Of a stretch of DNA of 32,788 nucleotides, positions 697 through 11,588 are shown one piece after another. Made by a program: the position numbers and the translations under genes. Positions within the stretch are counted from its first letter, which is position 1. Every line of letters begins with the position of its first letter. A model generated the notes under the pieces. It had not been told where the DNA came from. It saw only the letters and a program-made list of their open reading frames with translations, and did not search any database. This stretch comes from Parcubacteria group bacterium Gr01-1014_29 (lineage in GTDB: Bacteria > Patescibacteriota > Minisyncoccia > Ryanbacterales > 2-02-FULL-48-12): assembly GCA_007376195.1 (NCBI GenBank), contig VMFT01000012.1, forward strand, positions 1-32,788, written 5' to 3'.

Positions 697-2450
697 GAAG
701 ATAGTGTATCATTTCCTTTTGGAAGCGAAAAGCTGAATGTGGAACCTTTTCCTTCTTCCGAATGGAACCACACAGTTCCCTCCATGCGTTCAATGAGCTC
801 TTTTGTTATAAAAAGCCCGAGACCCGTACCTTGAAGACCGCTTTCCCGAGCCGCTGCGGTACGATAAAACTTCTCAAAAATTTTTCCTTGTTCGCTTTTT
901 GGTATACCAAAACCAACATCTGCTATATGAGTAACAACGCCGACATCTTTTGTTTCGTGGGAAATAGTAATAGTACCGCGTTCACGATTATATTTTATCG
1001 CATTCGTGACAAAGTTCATGATAACTTCTTTCAAGCGCACCGCGTCCGCTTGCACGATGAGCGCGTGCGTTGGGCGTTCATAGGATAGCGTCAAACGTTT
1101 TTCTTGCATCAGCGGCTTAATTCCCTCCCGTATCGTATCAATGCTTTCTCGTATATCCAGAGGAACAACCTGAATTTGTATCTTACCGGCTTCCGAACGC
1201 GCAATTTCCAAAAGATCATTTACCAGCTGCAATAGCTGCTCATTCGCTTTGTTCGCTTCCGTTAAGTATTCCCGCAATGTACCCGAAAATTTTCCAGCAT
1301 CTCCCTCCAGAATCATTGAGATATATCCTTTGATTACCGTTGTGGGCGCGCGAAGTTCATGCGCTGCGATAAACACAAACTCATTCTTGAGTTCCTGCAA
1401 GCGCTTGAGGCCTTTTGTCATAGCGCTAAACGCTTTCCCTAATTCTTCCAATTCATCGCCCGTAGAGATAAAAACACCTGATTCAAAATCGCCCTGTTCA
1501 ATGCGTCGAGCACCTGCTTCCAGGGAACGGATGGGGTATACAATGCGCGCTGCAAACAGAAAAGCGACGAACACCACTCCCAGCATGCTTGCAGCAACTA
1601 CAACAATAATTTGTTCACGGATATCATCAATAATGGTATCAACTTCCGCCAAGGGCCACTCTACTATCAATGTCCAACCCGCTAAGAGCACGCGCTTGGC
1701 GCCCGCAACAGCAGTGGTACTAAATATACTCTCATACCGATCTGTCTCGTCGAGTTGCGCAATGAGTGCCACTATATGTTCACCCGGTTTGACAGAACCA
1801 AATGATTCTGTTCCCACATAAACTCCACGATTGTCCGCAAGTACAATATAGCCAGTCTCGCCAAGCCGGTGAGCCGTCAATGAACGCACCAGCAGGCTCA
1901 AATCAATTTCCGCAATAACAACCTGTACCACCTCTTCTCCCGCACGTACAGGAGAAGCCATGACTACGTTCGGGCCCGTGGCGGTATAGTACACACTCCC
2001 TATATATGGCATGCCACTCAGCGCCGTTTTGAATGCCGGTAAATCTGAGACGTATAGAAGCGGCCCACCGCGCGGCGTGCGGGAAGCACGCGCCGTTTCT
2101 TTTCCTTCAGGAGAGACAAACAATACCTCGACAAACTCATCATGCTCGGCGCGCAATGCCTCTGCAAGCCGCGATTGCCACTGATCAATCCCCGGCGTAA
2201 TTTCTGCTGCATCAAGCGCCTCAAGCCGCACATCGAGAACGCCCATCAAATCAGAAAAAAATGTCGTCACTTCTTCTTCCTTTGCCCGCAATGTTTCGTG
2301 TTCTATTACAAGCACATCCTGGCGATGCGCTTGATCCAGCAGCACAAGCGTAATCCATCCCAGCAATAACGCGGGAATCGCCGCAAGCACTAAAAACAAA
2401 GAAAGAATCTTGTCGCGAAGCGGACTGGTAAAGAAAAAAAGGTGTTTCAT
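693..2450 (-). CDS. Membrane sensor histidine kinase (Cache-like sensor, HAMP, HisKA, HATPase)
   Basis: 585 residues. TM1 is at about 15-38 and TM2 at about 280-303. Between them lies a roughly 240-residue extracytoplasmic region with double-Cache character ('NVVMASPVR' 161-169, 'GYIVLADNRGVYVGT' 200-214). A HAMP linker (about 300-350) leads to HisKA, with phospho-accepting H364 in 'AAHELRAP'. The HATPase domain has an N box around N483, a G1 box 'DVGFGIP' at 511-517 and a G2 box 'GTGLGL' at 541-546, so the kinase looks complete. The gene overlaps the protease gene upstream (ATGA at 2447-2450) and the receiver gene downstream (693-696), so all three are coupled. The ligand is unknown. Its genomic partners suggest it senses something at the cell envelope or in the wall-bound surface protein; that is inference. 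Confidence 0.93.
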   Translation of the reverse strand: MKHLFFFTSPLRDKILSLFLVLAAIPALLLGWITLVLLDQAHRQDVLVIEHETLRAKEEEVTTFFSDLMGVLDVRLEALDAAEITPGIDQWQSRLAEALRAEHDEFVEVLFVSPEGKETARASRTPRGGPLLYVSDLPAFKTALSGMPYIGSVYYTATGPNVVMASPVRAGEEVVQVVIAEIDLSLLVRSLTAHRLGETGYIVLADNRGVYVGTESFGSVKPGEHIVALIAQLDETDRYESIFSTTAVAGAKRVLLAGWTLIVEWPLAEVDTIIDDIREQIIVVVAASMLGVVFVAFLFAARIVYPIRSLEAGARRIEQGDFESGVFISTGDELEELGKAFSAMTKGLKRLQELKNEFVFIAAHELRAPTTVIKGYISMILEGDAGKFSGTLREYLTEANKANEQLLQLVNDLLEIARSEAGKIQIQVVPLDIRESIDTIREGIKPLMQEKRLTLSYERPTHALIVQADAVRLKEVIMNFVTNAIKYNRERGTITISHETKDVGVVTHIADVGFGIPKSEQGKIFEKFYRTAAARESGLQGTGLGLFITKELIERMEGTVWFHSEEGKGSTFSFSLPKGNDTLSS

Positions 2451-3199
2451 ATGCCAAGAGCGGTTAGGGTTTCCGGAGAAAGATACGCCTCCTCAAGCGG
2501 CACACGCACCCGTCCCATGATATCCCGCGACTGTATCAGCTCAACATCGACCTCTAAACCGTCCGGGAACACTTTTTTTGCGGTTCGGTACCCGTCCGGC
2601 ACACCCAACGCATGATAAAATTCGTGCGCAAAGAACGTACTCGCAACATCACGCGTATCAGAACGTTCAAAAAAAATTCGCGATAGTAATGCCACATGTT
2701 TGCTTCCACCCGCTCCGACGCCTTCATACAACACCAGCAGTATTTTATACGGCGAGGCGGTATCTAATGATATCTTCAAACCGTCGAGTATTTCTTCTGC
2801 AACGGGGCGCAGCACTTGTGGATCGTTATGTTGAAGGAGATTTATATCATACGCCGCATGCGTTTCTCTTCCCACAACCGCTTGTGGGTGTATGGTATAG
2901 GTTACGCGGGAAGACCCCCGAAACTGAACATCATGGAATTTTTGCAAGCGCGCAAGTTCTCTCTCTAACAGCGTATGCCATACTTCAGTCGGAACAGGTG
3001 TTGCACCCTGCGGCACAAAATATACTGCCGTTACCTGAATATCAGCAGTCAACTCTACGGGATTATCATAGGCATGCGGCTGGGGAACAGTGAGCGCCGG
3101 AGGCGGAGAGACATCGGAAGACCCGACGAACATAATGAGAAAGACAAGTGCAGCGCCAATGAATCCTATGATGGCAATGACATATATGCGCATAGACAA
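2447..3199 (-). CDS. Membrane-anchored metzincin-type zinc metalloprotease (putative)
   Basis: 250 residues. One N-terminal hydrophobic segment (about 4-25) works as signal anchor, so the catalytic part should face outwards. The zinc site is 'HEFYHALGVPD' (192-202), which fits HExxHxxGxxD, the metzincin form seen in snapalysin-like enzymes where Asp replaces the third His. A likely Met-turn, 'DIMG' at 226-229 with M228, follows 26 residues later as in metzincins. The rest is not recognisable by eye. It sits 3 nt after the giant surface protein gene and overlaps the sensor kinase start by 4 nt. A role in processing the surface protein, or in making the kinase's signal, is plausible but inferred. 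Start could also be M3 (3193). Confidence 0.8.
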   Translation of the reverse strand: MSMRIYVIAIIGFIGAALVFLIMFVGSSDVSPPPALTVPQPHAYDNPVELTADIQVTAVYFVPQGATPVPTEVWHTLLERELARLQKFHDVQFRGSSRVTYTIHPQAVVGRETHAAYDINLLQHNDPQVLRPVAEEILDGLKISLDTASPYKILLVLYEGVGAGGSKHVALLSRIFFERSDTRDVASTFFAHEFYHALGVPDGYRTAKKVFPDGLEVDVELIQSRDIMGRVRVPLEEAYLSPETLTALGI

Positions 3200-3202
3200 A
3201 TC

Positions 3203-6200
3203 CTAAAATACTCGTGCTCCCAAAAGCACATTCATCTTCATGCGCGTGGAAGGTCCCACAAAACCGGTGCCAGCCGAAAGTCCTACCGGCAGAAGAATTT
3301 CTGCACGATATTTCTCTTGGAAACGAATAACGGCTTTCTGCGTCAGCGAACCGAAGTATCCCGTAATAAGTCCTTCTGGATAGACGCCCTCCTTCAACAA
3401 AAGCTGTTGGAGAAGAGTAACGTCGCTGCTTGTATTGTCGAGGGTGAGGTTTCTTTCAAATGAATCTTCGGCCGTTGATTTTGTTGCGGGTAGCGCTGAA
3501 CCTGTCGGCGTCCCCAAAAGTGTGTTTATCTTTGCACGTGTGGAAGGTCCCACAAAACCGGTGCCACCCGAAAGTCCTGCTGGCCGAAGAATTTCCGCCC
3601 GGTATTTCTCTTGGAAACGGACAACGGCTTTCCGCGTCAGAGAACCGAAATAGCCGGTTATTCTCCCTTCTGGATACACACCCTCTGCCAATAAAAGCTG
3701 CTGAAGAAGTGTAACATCAACACCTTCGTTTCCAAGAGTAAGATTACGTTCAAGTAGTATTAGCGACTGCGCTTGTCCAGACGGCAACGCGGCCACGCTC
3801 AACGGTGTCTCCCCCCCTGCCGAGGAAACCAATGCGGTTGCAGAAGTATTATCAGTGTTTGCTGACTCGTTTCCTGCCGCATCTACCGCACGTACAGTAT
3901 AGTAATAGAGAGTTCCTGCAACGAGATTCTTTGTATCGGTAAAGATATTTGTGAGAACCTCCACCGCTTGACTTATTCCCAGTTCCTGTGCCGAGAGCGA
4001 TCGATACACCTTGGCATGATGAAAGTCTGCTGACGGATTTATCCAGGTAAGCCCAATTCCTCCTATTGCAAGCGCCGTTGCAACAACCTTGGTGGGTGCG
4101 GCGGGCGGAGAAATATCGGCTGCTGCCACAATAGCAAAGCGGGTGAAATGATTTACCGATGCCGTAACCACCTGTTCCTCTTTATTCACTACAGAACTTT
4201 CAAGTGTCTTCCATGTGCCGTTCGCCTCATCCCAAAAACTCATGACAAGATCGTCCTCACGCGCCCCGAGAGCAATTACGTTCTCTTCCGTATACGGTAT
4301 TGTTACGGTTACATTGGTGTTAAACAGGGTAATCTGCTGACCCGTCTCATCGCGCGCCGCTAAATCATATGCCACACCGACCACTTTAACTTCGCCTTGC
4401 GAAGGCGCGCGCGTGTCCGGTGTTGCGCTGATACTAACAGAACCGGACAGAGATATCGCATTCGCGGACGCTACTATCGTAACACCGTCTTTCACTTCCA
4501 CAACAGTCGGCTCTGCGGCGCTAGATGTTTGTACCACCGCTTCGGCCAAATTTGCATATTTGGCAATATGAATATCCTGCATCACGTTTTCACTTCCCAC
4601 CTTGACCAGTATCTCATTTGATTTATAGAACGCGCCGGTAATCTCTCCTCCCGCAGCGATCGTCCATGTATCCGATGCTGTTACATTCAAGCGAAAGATG
4701 CCTTCGGGTCCGGAAAAAGTCTCTTGGTACCCACCCGTATTCGACCACCCCCAGACAAACATATTGGGAATGGGAGCATCCTCCAGAAAAACACTGCCAA
4801 TTATGGCAAGATCAGCTTTACGCATCTGTAAATCAAGCGTCTTTGTCTCTCCATCTGCAATGGTGATGGCAACTTCTTTTGAATTGATGAATCCGCGATC
4901 CGGCGCCACAAATGTTTTTATAAAGTAAGATCCTGCAGACACCGCGAGACGATATGTTCCATTCGCGTCAGTTTCGGTGCCGGCAACGATGGGATCTTTA
5001 AACTCTTCTGACTCGATCGCGCCGGAAAAGCTCGTTTTACTCACCCCCACAAATGCATTGAATACTCCTGTTCCTGTCGGATCCGTCACACGGCCCATCA
5101 GTACAGCACTCGCTTTCTTTACAACCAAGTCCTTCGTACCTGTTCCTCCCTCAGCCACGGTAACTTCCACGTTCGGTTCATGATGCGAGAGATAGCCGGA
5201 TGCAGGATCAATATCATATCCGAGATACCAGGACCCTGCGGCAACACGCAGTGTATACTGTCCTGTTTGAGGATTCACCAGCGTCTCCTGCCATGAACCC
5301 TTGCCAGTCGTTGCAAACACTTGTGCTTTGATACCCGTCACAACCGTTCCTTTCTCATCCTTGAGCGTACCGGTAATTGTTGCCGTGTTTTTGGCTACCC
5401 CTACCTTCACGGACGTTGTCTCTCCCGTGCGAAGTGTTACTGTTTGAGCCTCTCCTGCCGTATATGATGATTCGGGTGGAAGAAACACGAAGAGAGAATA
5501 AATCCCCGCGGGCGCTTTGAAAGAAAACACGCCGCGCTCAATCTGTCCGCCAAGTCCTCCGTTTTGTTCATACGACTGCGAAAGATTCGCAAACCCATAG
5601 AGGTTGGAAAGAACCGCCCCCGCGGAGTCAATAATAGTTCCGGAAATACCCGCATCCGCAACGCGCAGAGTAAAGTTTACCGTCGCCGAAACGCCGGATG
5701 AAATTGAAATACTTTTGGGCGGATCGGAGCTGTAGTAGTTTGTTGAGGGGTCGGCATACGCGTGCACCTCCCATGTTCCCGGCGTAACCAATATATCAAA
5801 GAAGCCAGTTGCATCGGTTTTTGCAGACGCATATCCGGATGCTGTTGGCATCCACGCGCTTACTTCAACGCCGCCTATGCCTTTTCCGTTTTCATCACGC
5901 ACAAACCCGTTGATGTGATCAGTTTTTTTAATGAGATATATCGTACCCGCATCTGCCGTTCCTCCCTTTGCTACGGTAACAGACGGAATGGAAGGCGCTG
6001 TAAATGAAGAATCTTGGCCCCATACAAAAATCTTGTAGGTACCCGCGGTGACGGATAGCCGGAATACGCCAGTAGAATCAACCGAGCCGCCGAAGCGCTG
6101 TCCATCAGAAGATTCCGCATTAGGGTACACGGCATCCCGCGGGGGCGGCGTGCCGTCCGGCAATAGAATCTTTCCCGTAATCGCGGCGTCCGTAGCAGTA

Positions 6201-8194
6201 ACTACAAAATTGAGAGACTTGGTCTCACCAGTGACATCATCCTTAAATGTAACAATACTCGGCTCTTGGCCATAACTCCATTGAGAAGTTTCGGACGTGG
6301 GGTGTACCGAAACTTCCCACGTGCCGCCGAGCACCTTGAGCGAATAATTCCCGGAACTCGTAGTCGGCACATCAACCCATTGCTGGGTGTTTTTATTAAA
6401 TGCTCCCACGGAAGCGTCGGTAACAAAACGGCCATCAGAATAGGTAACAGTTCCGGTGATTGTCTTAGTTGCCTCGACAAGAGTGATGGTACCGAGATTT
6501 TTCACCTCGCCGGAAGCAATGGTAACGCTCGGCAACTGCGGAGCAGCAAATGTTTTATCATTGCTCCAGATGGACATTGTATAGGTACCGGCGGGTACCG
6601 GGATACGAAAACCTCCGCTGGCATCCACCGAACCGTTAAACTCACCTCCTTCCGATGCCCGTAAACCAACCGAAACGGTATACGCTGGCAGCGGCGTGCC
6701 GTCAGGCTTAAGAATGGTGCCCCGCGCTTCAGCGTCTGCTTTTGTGACGGTAAACATAAGCGGTAGTGATTCTGCTGTTTCATCGTTTGCAAACGTGACA
6801 CCCGTAGGTTGTGCATTGTAATTCCATCCTGCAGATGGCGACGTGGGCCCCATCGAAACTTGCCAATAGCCGCCGGAAACATGAAGAGAAAAAGTGCCTG
6901 TGGAATCGACTTCGCCGTACACATTTTCTTTTGTTGAATCCCGAAATATGCTCACATAGGCATTCGTTACCGGCGTGCCGTCGGAATACTTCACCGAACC
7001 CATAATAGTTTTGGGCGCCGTTACCAGTGTAATAGTACCAACATCTTTCGTCTCGCCAGAAGCGACAGAAACTGACGGCACGGGGGACGCTATCAAAGAG
7101 GAATCCTGGAAATTAACAGAGACATTGTATGTGCCAGCGGCAACTTTTATCATAAATGATCCGTCCGTTGTAATGTTGCCGCCAAACCACGATCCGCCGG
7201 AACTCTGGAGATTTACATGTACCTTCATCATATCAGGAACACTGCCATCTTGTTTTAGTACCTTCCCTTTTATGGAGCTTTCAGTACGCACCACGGTAAA
7301 GGTAGCCGTTGTTTGTTCGGCAGTTTCGTCTTTTGAAAAAAGGACAGTCTTATTAGATTGATTATAACTCCATGTTGCTTCGGAGGTGGCAGGATATACA
7401 TACAGCTCCCATGAGCCGCCGGATACCGCAAGTGTATATGATCCATTGGATGCCGTTCCTGTTTCCTTGCTCTCATTTGTCTCCTTATTCCAGGCGCTTA
7501 CCTTTGCATCTGTTACTGCAGTGCCGTCTGCATACGTAACACTACCGGTGATAGTTTTTGTTAATACCGCCAACGAAACAAACACTATATTTGACTGCCC
7601 CGAACAGCCAGAAGAGTTGCAGGCAACAACATGGTATTCATACGAACCAACTGGAAGAGAAGGATCGTTATACATTTTCAACGAATACGGTTGTGTTGCA
7701 ATGAGTTCCCAGGAACCGCCATTCTTCCGACGATACATTTTAAACGTCTCGGTATTTGAGGCAGTATCGGTCCATATGAGACCTACATCTTTGCTCCCAG
7801 TAGCGACCGCTGCCGAAAGACCACCCGGTGTGGAGGGCGCGCCCAGAGAAGTGCTACCACTGCCGCTAGAACCAGATCCCGAAGAGCTTGAACTTGAATA
7901 AGAGCAATGATTAGTGCCGCTATCCCAAACACATCCAGATGTTGACGTACAACTCGCACTGCTGGTATATGAATCGCACCCCGCCTTACACGAATTGGTA
8001 GTGCTATCCCAATAATAACCTTGAGGACAGGAACTAGTAGTTCCGGTACTGCTGTCTGTCACGCATGAATTTGTAGCACTATCCCAATGATACCCCTGCG
8101 GGCAACTCATTGTACCTTCCGCGTTGATAAATGAAACCGCGACTACAAAGACAAAAACAATAAAACTTATATAAAAAACAAATCCTCGTTTCAT
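3203..8194 (-). CDS. Giant secreted wall-binding repeat protein
   Basis: 1663 residues. A signal peptide (about 1-25) is followed by Cys-rich 'CPQGYxWDSxTNSC' units (31-44, 56-69), a third variant (73-97) and a Ser/Gly linker. Next comes a fibronectin III domain (about 120-208). Three alternating pairs of carboxypeptidase-regulatory-like beta-sandwiches follow (about 213-755, period about 180 residues), then about five single, more divergent copies. A domain ending 'VNHFTRFAIV' (ZU5-like) comes before a second FN3 (about 1370-1465). Two near-identical peptidoglycan-binding-like modules (about 1481-1560 and 1579-1658) end the protein. This is a typical elongated adhesin-like stalk fixed to the wall at its C-terminus. 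It is the first gene of the protease / kinase / regulator operon. The ligand is unknown. ATG at 8194 is supported by the signal peptide. Confidence 0.9.
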   Translation of the reverse strand: MKRGFVFYISFIVFVFVVAVSFINAEGTMSCPQGYHWDSATNSCVTDSSTGTTSSCPQGYYWDSTTNSCKAGCDSYTSSASCTSTSGCVWDSGTNHCSYSSSSSSGSGSSGSGSTSLGAPSTPGGLSAAVATGSKDVGLIWTDTASNTETFKMYRRKNGGSWELIATQPYSLKMYNDPSLPVGSYEYHVVACNSSGCSGQSNIVFVSLAVLTKTITGSVTYADGTAVTDAKVSAWNKETNESKETGTASNGSYTLAVSGGSWELYVYPATSEATWSYNQSNKTVLFSKDETAEQTTATFTVVRTESSIKGKVLKQDGSVPDMMKVHVNLQSSGGSWFGGNITTDGSFMIKVAAGTYNVSVNFQDSSLIASPVPSVSVASGETKDVGTITLVTAPKTIMGSVKYSDGTPVTNAYVSIFRDSTKENVYGEVDSTGTFSLHVSGGYWQVSMGPTSPSAGWNYNAQPTGVTFANDETAESLPLMFTVTKADAEARGTILKPDGTPLPAYTVSVGLRASEGGEFNGSVDASGGFRIPVPAGTYTMSIWSNDKTFAAPQLPSVTIASGEVKNLGTITLVEATKTITGTVTYSDGRFVTDASVGAFNKNTQQWVDVPTTSSGNYSLKVLGGTWEVSVHPTSETSQWSYGQEPSIVTFKDDVTGETKSLNFVVTATDAAITGKILLPDGTPPPRDAVYPNAESSDGQRFGGSVDSTGVFRLSVTAGTYKIFVWGQDSSFTAPSIPSVTVAKGGTADAGTIYLIKKTDHINGFVRDENGKGIGGVEVSAWMPTASGYASAKTDATGFFDILVTPGTWEVHAYADPSTNYYSSDPPKSISISSGVSATVNFTLRVADAGISGTIIDSAGAVLSNLYGFANLSQSYEQNGGLGGQIERGVFSFKAPAGIYSLFVFLPPESSYTAGEAQTVTLRTGETTSVKVGVAKNTATITGTLKDEKGTVVTGIKAQVFATTGKGSWQETLVNPQTGQYTLRVAAGSWYLGYDIDPASGYLSHHEPNVEVTVAEGGTGTKDLVVKKASAVLMGRVTDPTGTGVFNAFVGVSKTSFSGAIESEEFKDPIVAGTETDANGTYRLAVSAGSYFIKTFVAPDRGFINSKEVAITIADGETKTLDLQMRKADLAIIGSVFLEDAPIPNMFVWGWSNTGGYQETFSGPEGIFRLNVTASDTWTIAAGGEITGAFYKSNEILVKVGSENVMQDIHIAKYANLAEAVVQTSSAAEPTVVEVKDGVTIVASANAISLSGSVSISATPDTRAPSQGEVKVVGVAYDLAARDETGQQITLFNTNVTVTIPYTEENVIALGAREDDLVMSFWDEANGTWKTLESSVVNKEEQVVTASVNHFTRFAIVAAADISPPAAPTKVVATALAIGGIGLTWINPSADFHHAKVYRSLSAQELGISQAVEVLTNIFTDTKNLVAGTLYYYTVRAVDAAGNESANTDNTSATALVSSAGGETPLSVAALPSGQAQSLILLERNLTLGNEGVDVTLLQQLLLAEGVYPEGRITGYFGSLTRKAVVRFQEKYRAEILRPAGLSGGTGFVGPSTRAKINTLLGTPTGSALPATKSTAEDSFERNLTLDNTSSDVTLLQQLLLKEGVYPEGLITGYFGSLTQKAVIRFQEKYRAEILLPVGLSAGTGFVGPSTRMKMNVLLGARVF
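3219..3753 (-). repeat. Tandem duplication of a peptidoglycan-binding-like module
   Basis: Copies at 3513-3753 and 3219-3459 are offset by exactly 294 nt and are highly alike in DNA and protein. Both encode 'NLTL.N...DVTLLQQLLL' followed by 'GVYPEG.ITGYFGSLT' and 'GFVGPSTR'. They form the C-terminus of the giant surface protein. Similarity at DNA level suggests recent duplication or gene conversion. Confidence 0.85.
5932..7558 (-). repeat. Three tandem two-domain repeats in the giant surface protein
   Basis: Three consecutive units of about 180 codons (starting near 7558, 7012 and 6469 on the minus strand). Each has a type-A domain ('TKTITGxVxYxDG..VTDA') and then a type-B domain ('KxDGT....', ending 'SVxxASGExKxxGTITLV'). 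Boundaries are approximate because they were read from the protein alignment by eye. Confidence 0.75.
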
Positions 8195-11278: not shown

Positions 11279-11302
11279 ATTATTTTGTTGTGGATAACGG
11301 AC

Positions 11303-11331
11303 TTGACTTTATATTTAATAGAGGATATAAT
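11303..11331 (+). promoter_or_regulatory. Strong plus-strand promoter for a non-coding RNA
   Basis: TTGACT (11303-11308) and a perfect TATAAT (11326-11331) are 17 nt apart. Initiation is expected near 11338, just before the first complementary arm. It is the best sigma-70 match I found in the window and it points away from all the accepted protein genes. Confidence 0.75.
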
Positions 11332-11336
11332 GACAA
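11308..11336 (-). promoter_or_regulatory. copA promoter (minus-strand half of a bidirectional promoter)
   Basis: On the minus strand, TTGTCA (11336-11331) and TATAAA (11313-11308) are 17 nt apart, each 5 of 6 to the sigma-70 consensus. Initiation near 11301 would give a leader of about 22 nt before the copA ATG. It overlaps almost exactly with a plus-strand promoter. Confidence 0.65.
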
Positions 11337-11378
11337 TACGTTGTCAAGGCTGTATTGAACGAAACCGTTCGGTACTCC

Positions 11379-11410
11379 AAAGGGCTCACGTGGGTGAGCT
11401 CTTTGTTTTT
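11379..11410 (+). terminator. Internal intrinsic terminator-like hairpin
   Basis: An 11-bp stem (11379-11389 with 11394-11404, one G-T) with a 4-nt GTGG loop is followed by GTTTTT. The T-run lies on the plus-strand side only. Transcripts from the first promoter may stop here at about 70 nt. Confidence 0.7.
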
Positions 11411-11436
11411 GACAACAAACTTTGATATTATTTTAT
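11409..11436 (+). promoter_or_regulatory. Second plus-strand promoter candidate
   Basis: A perfect TTGACA (11409-11414) and TTTTAT (11431-11436) are 16 nt apart. Initiation would fall close to 11440-11443, where the tRNA-like module begins. The -10 is weaker than that of the first promoter. The -35 doubles as an arm of the competing local fold. Confidence 0.45.
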
Positions 11437-11439
11437 CGT

Positions 11440-11518
11440 GGACCTGAGGGCCGAGTCCGAACGGTTTCGGGAACAGCTTTGACAACTGTCTTTTGGGGTT
11501 CAACTCCCCCTCGGTCCA
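11440..11518 (+). other. tRNA-like RNA module (degenerate cloverleaf)
   Basis: GGGG-TTCAACT-CCCC (11495-11509) is a canonical T-arm with the T-loop consensus. It is followed after one C by TCGGTCC and A, like a 7-nt acceptor strand plus discriminator. Upstream are GGGCCGA (pairs 7 bp with TCGGTCC), a CCGA/TCGG D-arm-like stem, and ACAG/CTGT closing a 9-nt loop that contains TTGACAA. Against a working tRNA are the 9-nt anticodon loop, the very short D-loop, the T-stem mismatch and the absent CCA. GGACC (11440-11444) with GGTCC gives an alternative closing stem. Confidence 0.45.
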
Positions 11519-11526
11519 TTCACAAG

Positions 11527-11550
11527 AACTGCCATTATCGGCGGTTTTTG
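11527..11550 (+). terminator. Intrinsic terminator of the ncRNA locus
   Basis: AACTGCC (11527-11533) pairs with GGCGGTT (11540-11546) across a 6-nt loop, and TTTTT spans 11545-11549. The orientation is plus strand, matching the promoter at 11303-11331. Confidence 0.75.
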
Positions 11551-11588
11551 TGTCGTTGGGGGGTGAGAAAATGAACTTGACCATAAAA

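Follow-up and report, generated by a model that had tools for sequence, protein, structure and literature searches.

The region 11303-11552 of the window, the whole stretch of 32,788 nucleotides that was analysed, is occupied by two independent predicted RNA genes on the plus strand, which adjoin the copper-pump gene copA. The first gene, RNA1, begins with the strong plus-strand promoter of the original prediction, TTGACT-17-TATAAT at 11303-11331 (11/12). The promoter is followed by a putative antisense RNA of about 70 nt (11339-11410), which we recognised from this promoter, from its complementarity to the second RNA and from an intrinsic terminator at 11378-11410 (12-bp stem and TTTTT), the internal terminator that had been expected; the same architecture is kept at 20 loci. 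Long-range pairing arms had been claimed over 14 and 17 bp, and two such arms are present. The 5′ seed of RNA1, GTTGTCAAGGCTGT (11340-11353), pairs over 14 nt with the anticodon-like arm of the second RNA at 11473-11486 (93%, one G.U), a pairing that shows co-variation, and the second segment CGAAACCGTTCGG (11360-11372) pairs over 13 nt with the D-arm at 11457-11469 (100%). A short open reading frame inside RNA1 (M-T-S-L-L type) is not conserved and was put down to chance.

The second gene, RNA2, is a predicted tRNA-like RNA that runs on the plus strand from about 11438 to 11550 and has its own terminator, a hairpin with a 13-bp stem at 11521-11552 that had likewise been foreseen. A second promoter with a perfect TTGACA had been assigned to it. 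This hexamer does exist at 11409-11414, but it lies 11 nt from TATTAT (11426-11431), a gap too short for sigma-70, and the promoter of RNA2 had been mis-assigned. The better reading is an extended -10 promoter, TGATATTAT (11423-11431), which ends 7 nt before GTGGAC; in the Paceibacteria homologues, read by eye, TGnTAtnAT also stands 7 nt ahead of GTGGA. What had been noticed as a tRNA-like 3′ end is only part of a full alanine-type cloverleaf at 11448-11518. This is composed of the acceptor 5′ strand GGGCCGAG (11448-11455, G3 at 11450), the D-arm CCGAA-CGGT-TTCGG (11457-11470), all 5 pairs of which covary, the anticodon-like arm ACAG-CTTTGACAA-CTGT with a loop of the U-turn type (11473-11489), the T-arm GGGG-TTCAACT-CCCC (11495-11509) and the acceptor 3′ strand CTCGGTCC (11510-11518) with U70 at 11515 and the discriminator A73 at 11518. 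As had been stated, no reading frame explains the locus: Pfam gave no match for the overlapping minus-strand ORF of 100 aa, and the locus is explained without any ORF.

The locus was also rightly called unrecognised. Neither the window nor any of 19 module loci matched an Rfam 15 family at the gathering score, and at E values up to 10 only weak tRNA-Sec and viral tRNA-like matches appeared. ARAGORN called no tRNA at the window locus, which is also absent from the tRNA matches (RF00005) of its own genome; among the module loci only L137 was called as a tRNA (tRNA-Ser). We rejected tRNA-Sec (RF01852), which at 30.7 bits stays below its cut-off of 47 and whose long variable arm is missing here, as well as tmRNA (RF00023) including a split or second tmRNA, which gave no match at the locus; the normal tmRNA of the genome is located at C45. 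Elsewhere the genome has a full-looking tRNA set, and with many isoacceptors present, among them Ser-UGA and Ala-UGC, the idea that RNA2 fills in for a missing isoacceptor was discarded as well.

Searches with a single-sequence covariance model (384 genomes of the class) together with a pattern scan of GTDB genomes gave the first true homologues, to which improved covariance models then added more divergent ones from a second class within the phylum. Altogether there are at least 21 further RNA2 loci in two classes of Patescibacteria, a phylum name that rests on the named relatives (Yanofskybacteria, Sungiibacteriota and Giovannonibacteria). With the window 22 loci were counted (L068, L091-L098, L131-L141 and L143). 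The prevalence is a lower bound, as genomes were sampled and the large searches scored about 11-12 candidates for each genome. The single-sequence model R1 had matches in 173 genomes, most of them weak; these appear to be ordinary tRNAs as judged from the loci inspected and were not counted. The distribution of the module is patchy, and it was not found in phages and plasmids by nucleotide search or in viral contigs by pattern search.

The cloverleaf of RNA2 is retained among these relatives. In an alignment of 12 members, which was fitted to the covariance model and with which a MAFFT alignment of 10 members agrees, 94.9% of the cells are paired and 14 of the 23 pairs have changed on both sides; this was matched by none of 500 shuffles, and slid controls reached 42-64%. 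RNA2 has an acceptor of 8 bp with G3.U70 and A73, a canonical T-arm and a short D-loop. G3.U70 is invariant in all 12 aligned members while acceptor pairs 5-7 vary, and an automatic scan detected it in 20 of the 22 loci, the exceptions being L068, which is mis-registered, and L139, which needs a bulge; A73 is found at all 22. G3.U70 together with A73 is the established alanine identity, and the tRNA-Ala(UGC) of the same genome (L012) has the same GGGCC...GGTCC-A end. RNA2 is a candidate alanine acceptor by both G3.U70 and A73.

In the 22 loci scanned the anticodon-like arm usually consists of 7-8 bp and a U-turn loop of 8-9 nt (mostly 8 nt), often YUNR, although the automatic hairpin caller mis-registers this arm in some members; in the window it has by eye 4 bp and a 9-nt loop and is less regular than in most members. 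A canonical tRNA (RF00005) with its 5-bp stem and 7-nt loop was therefore rejected. RNA2 could still be a true non-canonical decoding tRNA that inserts alanine by missense or, given the 8-nt loop, by frameshift, with RNA1 as its switch. It has the full cloverleaf with T-loop and A73, CCA is encoded in L098 and in all second-class members, a U33-like U is present in the loops, and AlaRS ignores the anticodon. Decoding is known for compact tRNAs whose arms are unusual, tRNAPyl being an example (PMC7609411). We nevertheless regard a decoding role as unlikely, since the loop triplets vary (CGA, UGA, CGU, UGU, UAC, UGC, UAU), since stems of 7-8 bp and loops of 8 nt depart from the norm of 5 bp and 7 nt (PMC7609411) and since the genome already has its own tRNA set.

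A linked RNA1 was found at 20 of the 22 RNA2 loci, and matched pairs are thus present in the window and at 19 further sites in distant relatives. RNA1 is laid out as a 5′ seed of 12-17 nt starting from about +1, a hairpin and a terminator, and in 19 of the 20 loci the seed lies 4-10 nt past the -10 of a promoter-like sequence; only L136 is without a convincing promoter. When the seeds of the nine tandem pairs were compared in the register that gave the best pairing, 132 of 134 cells were standard pairs and 31 cells in 13 of 17 columns were altered on both sides. The original prediction had offered two same-strand RNAs, the first complementary to the second, and the compensatory changes that it had demanded beforehand are indeed present in the homologues. 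Summed over the 20 loci the duplex energy of cognate partners is -966 as compared with -681 ± 22 for permuted partners (0/20,000), the cognate sum being somewhat favoured since the flank orientation was chosen by the best own energy; the sequence-level matches are independent of that choice. For the RNA1s of L068, L131 and L141 the own RNA2 ranked neither first nor second in cross-pairing. Paralogues within one genome (G100; G731; G910) bear different seeds. The pairing extends into the D-arm and, as read from the sequences, into the T-arm in some second-class members.

As a control we determined the flank duplexes of the ordinary tRNAs of the window genome, which were mostly between -23 and -38 kcal/mol, and inspected three stronger ones. 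The strongest, at tRNA-Asn, is explained by an adjoining degenerate tRNA copy, and those at tRNA-Val and tRNA-Arg look tRNA-derived too. Because duplicated tRNAs can mimic flank pairing in this way, an RNA1 in divergent or convergent position had to have a promoter and a minus-strand terminator of its own to be accepted. Such mimicry by duplicated tRNA gene fragments would also fit the possibility that the pairs arose by chance or are functionless remnants, be it a decayed inverted repeat of a mobile element or a tRNA pseudogene. The patchy distribution fits as well, and so do a tyrosine integrase (L095, 5476-6195) and a serine recombinase (L097, 2910-4483) that adjoin the module and the direct repeats of 18-22 bp (CCAACGGGGTGGGGGAGG) at 7291 and 7580 of L093, which flank the module there as if a cassette had been inserted. 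Set against the compensatory changes within RNA2 and between RNA1 and RNA2 and against the conservation of promoters and terminators, we consider decay or chance most improbable.

The relative orientation of the two genes is not fixed. RNA1 lies in tandem upstream on the same strand in the Paceibacteria members, a layout also seen in the second-class loci L131 and L132; the other second-class members carry it either divergently upstream (L133, L137, L140 and L143) or convergently downstream (L134, L135, L136, L138, L139 and L141). Each of these 10 opposite-strand RNA1s has its own terminator and, except for L136, a promoter-like sequence that puts +1 near the seed. This bears on the proposal, also made originally, that the locus encodes one RNA with alternative folds, for example an attenuator or a riboswitch-like leader. 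In the window both genes are on the same strand and 11330-11552 (223 nt) folds with -102 kcal/mol compared with -60 ± 4.6 for shuffled sequences (z = -9.2, 0/200), as would suit a single transcript. However, the 10 relatives with RNA1 on the opposite strand, the separate promoters and the fact that terminator 1 is complete before the partner would be made leave this proposal hardly tenable. The occurrence in tandem, divergent and convergent orientations argues for two trans-acting RNAs and rules out a single refolding transcript. The best explanation for RNA1 would be a dedicated antisense RNA that co-evolves with RNA2.

On the whole we lean towards a two-gene, protein-free RNA module, in which the antisense RNA1 neutralises the alanine-type tRNA-like RNA2, as a type VIII-like toxin-antitoxin system or as a regulatory switch. 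The computational support covers both RNA folds, the co-evolving complementarity, the cognate preference, the separate promoters and terminators and the three orientations. RNA1 would be made from the stronger promoter, which is near consensus while that of RNA2 is an extended -10 only; this is consistent with an excess of antisense RNA. Its 5′ seed is expected to pair with the anticodon-like loop and stem of RNA2, and the pairing would then zip into the D-arm, probably into the T-arm in some members, and undo the cloverleaf; as it runs into these arms, binding of RNA1 should abolish the tRNA fold. From the U-turn seeding, the D-arm pairing and the promoter strengths we infer that RNA1 holds RNA2 inactive. 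Free RNA2 might be charged by AlaRS and perturb or regulate translation. The conservation of its alanine identity, of the T-arm and of A73 suggests AlaRS, EF-Tu or the ribosome as its place of action, and RNA2 probably acts on the alanine or translation machinery.

The roles could also be reversed: RNA2 would then be in control and, as a stable tRNA-like sponge, would titrate RNA1 away from mRNAs as the true targets of RNA1. RNA1 is laid out like a seed-type sRNA with 5′ seed, hairpin and terminator, and an orphan RNA2 exists. Yet the seeds vary freely in step with RNA2 across the members, so that no conserved mRNA target is visible, and a sponge needs neither a conserved G3.U70/A73 nor a T-arm; such a reversal appears quite improbable to us. 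The orphan in G358 (L096) is an intact RNA2 without an RNA1 nearby, and a 15-nt seed pattern that allows G.U matched nowhere else in this 86%-complete genome. Free RNA2 is therefore not obviously lethal, which argues mildly against strong toxicity. Returning to neutralisation by RNA1, the rapid co-divergence, the varied seeds of paralogues, the patchiness, the unrelated neighbours and the recombinases at two members fit a type VIII-like toxin-antitoxin system. More tentatively, the antisense RNA could toggle an alanine-charged tRNA mimic in a new class of RNA-only modules of Patescibacteria, the mimic entering or blocking translation in regulated recoding or as a growth-arrest tRNA.

In type VIII toxin-antitoxin systems both partners are small RNAs, one opposing the other, in same- or opposite-strand layouts (PMC10767807). 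Like CreT/CreA and SdsR/RyeA, the module consists of two adjacent, protein-free RNA genes able to pair; CreA, however, works via Cascade and SdsR and RyeA overlap on opposite strands, whereas here two separate genes would pair with each other directly, the putative effector being tRNA-like. In U-turn antisense control, the classical path to rapid recognition, a single-stranded seed of the antisense partner meets a (Y)UNR U-turn loop of the target, followed by helix progression (PMC6562991). The module shares the U-turn loop in the target and the seed in the antisense partner with hok/Sok, pIP501 RNAII/RNAIII and bsrG/SR4, but their targets are mRNAs or leaders and not a structured tRNA-like RNA. 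With tmRNA it has in common the tRNA-like fold and G3.U70/A73 for alanine, but RNA2 lacks a tag ORF and carries a D-arm and an anticodon-like arm. For irregular allo-tRNAs, membership of TA systems or transposons was once a matter of speculation (PMC7609411). RNA2 resembles allo-tRNA and tRNA-Sec-like RNAs in the 8/4 acceptor-T composition and the short D-loop; it differs from these in lacking a long variable arm, in its alanine instead of serine identity, in the greater length of its anticodon-like arm and in having an antisense partner that co-evolves with it.

RNA1 and RNA2 may thus be previously undescribed small RNA genes forming an RNA-only on/off switch or toxin-antitoxin system. In a limited search of the open-access literature we came across no report of a tRNA-like RNA with a dedicated antisense RNA, nor of a module consisting only of RNA that is conserved across Patescibacteria. 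Should RNA2 be alanylated and RNA1 block it, the module would give direct RNA control over translation in organisms with very small genomes and few known regulators. It is compact, the seeds of paralogues differ, and it can be tested in E. coli; the covariance-supported family of 22 loci is a candidate addition to Rfam.

Except in L092 and L094, which are likely orthologous, the loci have unrelated neighbouring genes, and a protein partner for the module was discarded on these grounds. The module does face away from copA in the window, as had been described, but this looks accidental, the other members examined adjoining different genes. A perfect DnaA box (TGTGGATAA / TTATCCACA) lies at 11289-11297 just 5′ of the RNA1 -35. 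It is the sole strict match in the 32.8-kb window, and in the window, L092 and L094 such a box stands 148-149 nt before the RNA2 start; replication-linked control is possible. In L134, L137, L139, L141 and L143, and as a variant in L135, an operator-like palindrome of 12-14 bp, TGTACGATCGTACA, is located just 5′ of RNA2 or between the RNAs; it had no other copy in 425 kb of fetched sequence. The window genome also has truncated or overlapping duplicate tRNA genes, upstream of tRNA-Asn at L009 and in a tRNA-Thr pair at L022. L091 contains at 931-5124 a ribonucleotide reductase-like ORF of 1397 aa with, by eye, an apparent intein. Finally, a protein of 1663 aa is encoded at 3203-8194 of the window; it has six carboxypeptidase-regulatory-like domains as well as peptidoglycan-binding domains, and a histidine kinase gene lies nearby (693-2450).
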